Assembly: GCA_021804965.1 (NCBI GenBank)
Contig: JAJZGG010000004.1
Location: 1-64,000 of the forward strand
Source of the DNA: Acidobacteriota bacterium
Lineage (GTDB): Bacteria; Acidobacteriota; Terriglobia; Terriglobales; Acidobacteriaceae
Direction of reading: 5' to 3'
Length of the DNA stretch: 64,000 nucleotides
Part shown: piece by piece, positions 6,379 to 7,830 of the stretch
How the letters are laid out: each line of letters begins with the position of its first letter
Numbering within the stretch: position 1 is the stretch's first letter
Notes under the pieces: generated by a model
The model's input: the letters and a program-made list of their open reading frames with translations, nothing else
Databases searched by the model: none
Told to the model about the DNA's origin: nothing
Position numbers and translations under genes: made by a program

Positions 6379-7830
6379 CTATCGCTTGTATCCGCTGCTC
6401 TGCATCGCCCGCCGCTGCACCCGCTGCCAGAAGCGCGAGAAGCGCCGCAAATCCAGCTCGCCCAGCTCCTCCGTCCCGTCGCAGAAGCGCGGCTCCCGCA
6501 CCCACCCCACCGGCTCGCCCCGCATCCGCACCACGGCCTCAGCCGTCTCCTGCGCCACCACCCCATCGGCTCCCAGCCGCGCACACAGCCCGCGCAACAG
6601 CTCCGCCAACCCGCCCCGCTCCACCCGCGCAATCCACATCCGCTCCGGCATCTCCCGCAAACACTCCGCCACAAACGCCAGCCGCTTCGCGCTCACCCGA
6701 TCCCGCTCCAGCCACTCCCCATCCCACACAAACACCACCGGAGCCTCCGGATAGCGCCGCAGCGCCTCCTGCTTCGGATTCAGACTCCCGGCATGCACCC
6801 AGATCAGCGGCCGCCGCACCGGCTTGTCCGCCGCCGCCACTGCTGCGCCCTTCACACGACGCAGCCGCCCGGCCGGCCAACGCCCATCGCCTGACTCCGT
6901 CGCCATCCCTGCCGCCGTCTCTGCCCCGGTACCAAACAGCCGCACCGCCAGCTCCTCATAGCTGCCCTCCATCGGGCAACCACGCCCCGCCAGCGCGCAC
7001 CCCTCGCAAAACCGCCCACCCGTATACCGCTCCAGATTCTCCCGATTGAAAAAGTACGGCCTGCTCCCAAACGTCGATGCCACCCACTGCCACGACAGGT
7101 CATTGCTCGCCGCATCCCCATCCAGCAAATGCTCCCGAAACCACGCCGCACCCGCCTGCCACCGCACCCGCCGCCAATGCACCAGATACGCCGCCATCCA
7201 CATCCGCGCATGGTTGTGCAAATACCCGCTCCGCTGCAACTGCCCGCTCCAGGCATCCATGCACCGCAGCCCGGTCTGCGCCTCGCGCACATCCTCCGGC
7301 AGCTCTCGGGCGCGCGCCACCACCCCCGTCTTGTCCGCCTCCAGATCCGCACCCACCGCCCCATCCAGCGCCACATACACCCGCTGCCAATACTCCCGCC
7401 AGGCCAGCTCCTGCACCAGCTTTTCCGCACCCGCACCTGCCGCCGCCAGCGCTGCATCCCGCACCTCGCCCAGCGCCAACACCCCATGCCGCAGATACGG
7501 CGACAGCCCCGTCACCCTTCCATCCAGAAAATTCCGGCTCCGCGCATACCCCTCCGGATCCACCGCCCGCAACGCCGCCTCAGCCGCCGCACGACCACCC
7601 CGCATCCGCTCCGGCACCGCCGCCAGCCGCCAAGCCTCCACACTCCACCGCCCGGCCTGCCCGGCACCATCGCCCGCAGCCACATCGTCCGCAGCCGCGC
7701 CGTCCCCAGCACCATCGTCCCCGGCCAGGCGCGCATTCCCACCCGCCTGCAGGTCCGCACGCACCTGCGCCTCCAGCCGCGCCGCATCGCCGCAGTCCCC
7801 ATACACATTCCGCTCATGCAGGATCATCAC
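6379..7830 (-). CDS. photolyase/cryptochrome-like protein: N-terminal FAD-binding domain, C-terminal alpha/beta domain (permuted order)
   Basis: 483 aa; LSPYLRHGVL, ELAWREYWQRV, GYLHNHARMWMAAYL, HLLDGDAASNDLSWQWVAS and PYFFNRENLERYTGGRFCEGC match the photolyase FAD domain; C-terminal RPLIWVHAGSLNPKQEAL..PVVFVWDGEWL..KRLAFVAECLREMP resembles the photolyase N-terminal alpha/beta domain. Confidence 0.8.
   Translation of the reverse strand: MMILHERNVYGDCGDAARLEAQVRADLQAGGNARLAGDDGAGDGAAADDVAAGDGAGQAGRWSVEAWRLAAVPERMRGGRAAAEAALRAVDPEGYARSRNFLDGRVTGLSPYLRHGVLALGEVRDAALAAAGAGAEKLVQELAWREYWQRVYVALDGAVGADLEADKTGVVARARELPEDVREAQTGLRCMDAWSGQLQRSGYLHNHARMWMAAYLVHWRRVRWQAGAAWFREHLLDGDAASNDLSWQWVASTFGSRPYFFNRENLERYTGGRFCEGCALAGRGCPMEGSYEELAVRLFGTGAETAAGMATESGDGRWPAGRLRRVKGAAVAAADKPVRRPLIWVHAGSLNPKQEALRRYPEAPVVFVWDGEWLERDRVSAKRLAFVAECLREMPERMWIARVERGGLAELLRGLCARLGADGVVAQETAEAVVRMRGEPVGWVREPRFCDGTEELGELDLRRFSRFWQRVQRRAMQSSGYKR

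Follow-up and report, generated by a model that had tools for sequence, protein, structure and literature searches.

A photolyase gene with FAD-to-antenna domain order in an acidobacterial genome belongs to the Phr4/Phr5/Phr6 family

The gene and its domain order

The window, a 64,000-nucleotide stretch of one acidobacterial contig, contains at 6379-7830 on its minus strand a gene in which the catalytic FAD domain of a photolyase is followed by the alpha/beta antenna domain (Table 1). The first-pass annotation had placed the gene at these coordinates, and all of the motifs it quoted are present in the protein. Downstream on the same strand lie an ABC transporter gene, then LpxB, then an M1-type peptidase gene; a HemN/HemW-like radical SAM gene is divergent on the opposite side. 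Elsewhere, the source genome encodes a photolyase that reads from its sequence as class II-like (L110, 604-1986) and a typical FeS-BCP protein with a PF04244 domain (L111, 526-2178).

Table 1. Features of the reverse-order photolyase gene, in window coordinates
Feature	Position	Strand	Remarks
Whole gene, reverse-domain-order photolyase, 483 aa	6379..7830	minus	GTG start; ORF 7830..6379; internal stops absent
N-terminal extension, residues 1-72	7615..7830	minus	Variable, low confidence; degenerate 15-bp repeats at 7660-7722
FAD (catalytic) domain, residues 73-300	6931..7614	minus	Fe-S-type cysteine motif at its end
C190, first Fe-S-type cysteine	7261..7263	minus	15 residues ahead of H-N/H-H motif, spacing as in FeS-BCP
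Lesion pocket N206...M210	7201..7215	minus	Class I CPD-type H-N-x-x-R-M
N243 (flavin N5 Asn) to W247 (FAD-proximal Trp)	7090..7104	minus	
C275-x2-C278-x6-C285-P, remaining three Fe-S-type cysteines	6976..7008	minus	+70 from H-N motif vs +73 in FeS-BCP
Inter-domain linker, residues 301-338	6817..6930	minus	Low-confidence; dN/dS is highest here (0.44)
C-terminal alpha/beta antenna domain, residues 339-477	6400..6816	minus	Pfam, profile comparison, AF2/Foldseek

The Pfam profile FAD_binding_7 matched residues 139-260 (E 2e-21), with the match stopping at position 127 of the 203 in the profile. PF00875 (DNA_photolyase) matched residues 356-437 weakly and under the Pfam cut-off (E 0.014 with the whole protein, 0.0033 with the domain alone), and it reached E ≤ 1e-3 in 8 of 35 C-terminal or antenna members. 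Because this sequence-only signal was too weak on its own, profile-profile and structure comparisons were used. A profile built from 35 rows, the window protein and 34 relatives, drew its top PDB matches from the N-terminal antenna domains of photolyases and cryptochromes (best 1.7e-5). Against the canonical antenna profile it gave an alignment of 139 columns (Prob 98.1, E 9.8e-14); the canonical FAD half, used as a control, gave Prob 0.8 and the FeS-BCP antenna Prob 42. An AF2 model of the C-terminal domain alone (pLDDT 87, pTM 0.76) retrieved a (6-4) photolyase as its first Foldseek PDB match (prob 1.00, with a modest E of 4e-3), followed by universal stress proteins, and gave a TMq of 0.58 against CryB. 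The full-length model (pLDDT 82, pTM 0.83) was matched best by class I photolyases; these alignments span only ~240-300 columns, as a sequential aligner would be expected to give on swapped domains, and they are therefore silent on antenna docking. The linker is weak in this model. No canonical antenna domain was found N-terminally, residues 1-69 being low-confidence or disordered. The FAD-first, alpha/beta-second order read by eye in the first-pass annotation is thus borne out by Pfam, profile and structure comparisons. The N-terminal extension contains a degenerate, GDGGA-like 15-bp coding repeat (residues ~37-57), whose copy number varies among same-genus copies (the window, L002 1604-1716 and L013).

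The fragmented state of the source assembly (141 contigs, 87.5% complete) could suggest an assembly or annotation artefact, or a decayed gene. However, the same order is repeated in fused same-genus copies on independent contigs (G004; L002/L013, 93% identity) and in fused relatives, 41% identical, on three complete Deinococcus plasmids (L022-L024); misassembly was rejected on these grounds. Comparison with the 88% identical G004 copy gave a dN/dS of 0.17 over the gene, with values of 0.10 for the FAD domain and 0.22 for the antenna domain, and purifying selection acts on both. The swapped order is confirmed, and artefact or decay is extremely improbable. The Deinococcus plasmid relatives are annotated 'FAD-binding domain-containing protein', in agreement with the first-pass mention of proteins so named in other phyla. 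G004 carries several near-copies (88-96% identity) on short contigs (L002, L013, L014, L015), perhaps reflecting a strain mixture in the assembly.

Split, unlinked and fused relatives

Reverse-order relatives are found in Acidobacteria, Chloroflexi, Cyanobacteria, Deinococcota and Proteobacteria; none were found in the viral contigs searched. Eighty-six loci were classified, 80 from one genome scan and 6 others, with some near-duplicates among them. The two domains are encoded by adjacent genes in the order FAD, then antenna, at 59 of the 86 loci, and 37 of these 59 pairs overlap; in 26 pairs the overlap measures 4 bases. Sixteen loci are fused, including Synechococcus/Cyanobium relatives recovered in the scan (L037, L038, L041), and 11 are without an adjacent antenna gene. 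An antenna gene is present somewhere in all 11 of the latter genomes: 36 kb away on the opposite strand of the same contig in Scytonema (G392), ~6 kb away in G395, and on a separate contig in the other nine, one of which has its locus (L069) at a contig end and is uninformative. The genes are also apart in three genomes from another acidobacterial family, by 1.45 Mb in G191. Haney et al. (2022; PMC9426592) left open the question of whether phr4/phr5 makes one frameshifted protein or two. The separations of 36 kb and 1.45 Mb in two checked lineages make a single frameshifted protein impossible there and indicate that each half is able to work as a subunit of its own. The split form also occurs within the genus of the window gene, in G002 and G011, where the CxxC...C motif has been lost.

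Several neighboring features were recorded during the survey. A small DUF2256-like gene (CxxCxRPFxWRKKW) adjoins phr4/phr5 at 21 loci (e.g., L004 2710, L052 4880, L079 4792, L100 6161) in many Acidobacteria, Chloroflexi and Proteobacteria; the copy in the source genome is on a different contig (C100). At L038, L050, L060 and L085 (minus strand) and at L075, L079 and L080, the reverse-order gene has additional photolyase genes no more than a few kb away, and those at the first four loci have the canonical antenna-to-FAD order by the same profiles. The end of one gene is overlapped by a second photolyase-like ORF. L104 carries the record title 'Klebsiella pneumoniae isolate ZE-13nov19-95' and clusters among rows from Alphaproteobacteria and Acidobacteria; this MAG title may be mislabelled.

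In a tree of FAD domains, from which FeS-BCP proteins and one Persicobacter protein were excluded because of long branches, class I photolyases split off at 100/100, with many inner branches weak. The window protein groups with Cyanobium/Synechococcus members, apart from class I, although the internal order is weak. The fused rows require about 6-7 changes on this tree (7; bootstrap 6-8), and a single clade of fused forms was rejected (p-AU 1.75e-5), which speaks for several fusion or fission events rather than a circular permutation. The circular permutation proposed in the first-pass annotation is therefore probably the wrong mechanism, given that most relatives have separate FAD and antenna genes in this order, sometimes unlinked; permutation by tandem duplication is disfavored by the prevalence of these pairs and the non-monophyly of the fused forms, with gains and losses not polarized. 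The most likely origin of the reversed order is that neighboring phr4 (FAD) and phr5 (antenna) genes fused, the prevalence of pairs suggesting that they came first and the fusions later. We regard as evenly balanced the further proposal that a true two-subunit photolyase, with a separately encoded and possibly exchangeable antenna acting in trans, represents the ancestral or dominant form; the window's reversed chain, with its CPD-type pocket and Fe-S cluster, would then be one of several secondary fusions.

Active-site residues and probable function

The importance of individual CPD-pocket residues is known from E. coli photolyase. Among 90 aligned rows, N206, H207, R209, W224, N243 and W249 are invariant, and M210 is present in 82. 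N243 aligns with the Asn of the class I motif 'DGDxAxN', which upholds the first-pass assignment of an Asn facing flavin N5. The CPD-type pocket and the four Fe-S-type cysteines (C190, C275, C278, C285) had been overlooked in that annotation. C275, C278 and C285 are jointly present in 72/90 rows and jointly missing in 18/90, and the cysteine spacing agrees with that of FeS-BCP proteins, the source genome's own included. The class I-like H-N...R-M pocket favors a CPD over a (6-4) photoproduct as the predicted substrate.

These data make it likely that the window protein belongs to the reverse-order family Phr4/Phr5/Phr6 as a photolyase of two domains, and that it originated by fusion of a gene pair. 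The N-terminal FAD domain would bind a UV-damaged pyrimidine dimer and repair it through light-driven electron transfer from reduced FAD, and a putative [4Fe-4S]-type cluster would occupy the site at the end of that domain. The C-terminal domain, carried on a flexible linker of ~40 residues, is the FAD domain's probable docking partner and probable light-harvesting antenna. A cofH search for a deazaflavin antenna gave a 326-bit match, below the 374-bit cut-off, and control genomes likewise matched below the cut-off, which makes the match uninformative. Disruption of phr4 in Synechococcus RS9916 lowered UV-C survival 20-30-fold, and the mutant was not UV-B sensitive; Synechococcus phr4/5 raised UV-C survival of E. 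coli, the gain in light not significantly exceeding that in the dark, and conferred no UV-B protection (PMC9426592), which leaves light-driven repair unproven in this family. Because the source genome already has the class II-like photolyase and the FeS-BCP protein, the reverse-order gene may have a different job.

Functional change is common among photolyase-fold proteins, which counts in favor of a non-repairing protein, either a cryptochrome-like sensor of blue light or a redox protein, as does the lack of significant light dependence in the E. coli complementation. The photolyase-type pocket residues are nevertheless conserved across phyla, including the Asn at the N5 position, and loss of phr4 cuts UV-C survival (PMC9426592), making a sensor or redox role quite unlikely. 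Repair of (6-4) photoproducts by the same architecture was proposed for Phr4/5/6 by Haney et al., on the grounds of the Fe-S cysteines and the UV-C but not UV-B sensitivity of the phr4 mutant (PMC9426592). The four cysteines of the window protein do have FeS-BCP spacing, but its pocket, with N206 in every row, differs from the H-H...R-L of FeS-BCP proteins, and a typical gene of that type is also present in the source genome; we therefore consider (6-4) repair unlikely. A specialization for CPDs in single-stranded DNA, as in the related NewPHLs, is compatible with CPD repair by a two-domain photolyase and would be a version of it. The FAD domain lies on the NewPHL side of the branch that cuts off class I, and the source genome has its class II-like enzyme as well, but NewPHLs are without the cysteines, and their C-terminal domain is of another kind (Prob 14.8 against the 35-row antenna profile). 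Such a specialization is possible, though we lean against it.

Photolyases are the textbook example of a photoenzyme made of antenna plus engine. With its antenna reordered, split off or distantly encoded, this family makes it possible to test whether energy transfer needs covalent linkage, and the CPD-type pocket beside Fe-S cysteines opens the published (6-4) prediction to direct testing.

Comparison with known photolyases

The arrangement has been known since 2022 in marine cyanobacteria, where Haney et al. (mBio; PMC9426592) described reverse-order Phr4/Phr5, encoded by two adjacent ORFs, and fused Phr6 in Synechococcus/Cyanobium; the first-pass annotation had known of no functional description. 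The window gene is a further member of this little-studied family. Phr4/5/6 proteins share with it the FAD domain first, the DNA_photolyase domain second and the Fe-S-type cysteines, and exist in fused and split versions; the window protein differs in being acidobacterial, about 45% identical and extended by a long, variable N-terminus. Acidobacteria, Chloroflexi and Deinococcus go unmentioned in the main text of Haney et al. The wider phylum range, the possibility of a trans-acting subunit and the CPD-type pocket are new here.

Short NewPHLs have also been described with inverted topology. According to citing papers, NewPHL/Phr7 proteins (short single-strand CPD photolyases) have an N-terminal FAD domain and the same pocket motif as the window protein, but a C-terminal Z-domain and no Fe-S cysteines, whereas the window protein has a full antenna domain and the cysteines. 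FeS-BCP proteins (PhrB, CryB) have four cysteines at equivalent positions, but their N-terminal PF04244 antenna and H-H...R-L pocket are both absent from the window protein. Class I CPD photolyases have equivalents of N206, M210, N243, W224 and W247 in the FAD core and a homologous antenna domain; unlike the window protein, they place the antenna first, have a longer C-terminus on the FAD domain and contain no Fe-S cysteines.
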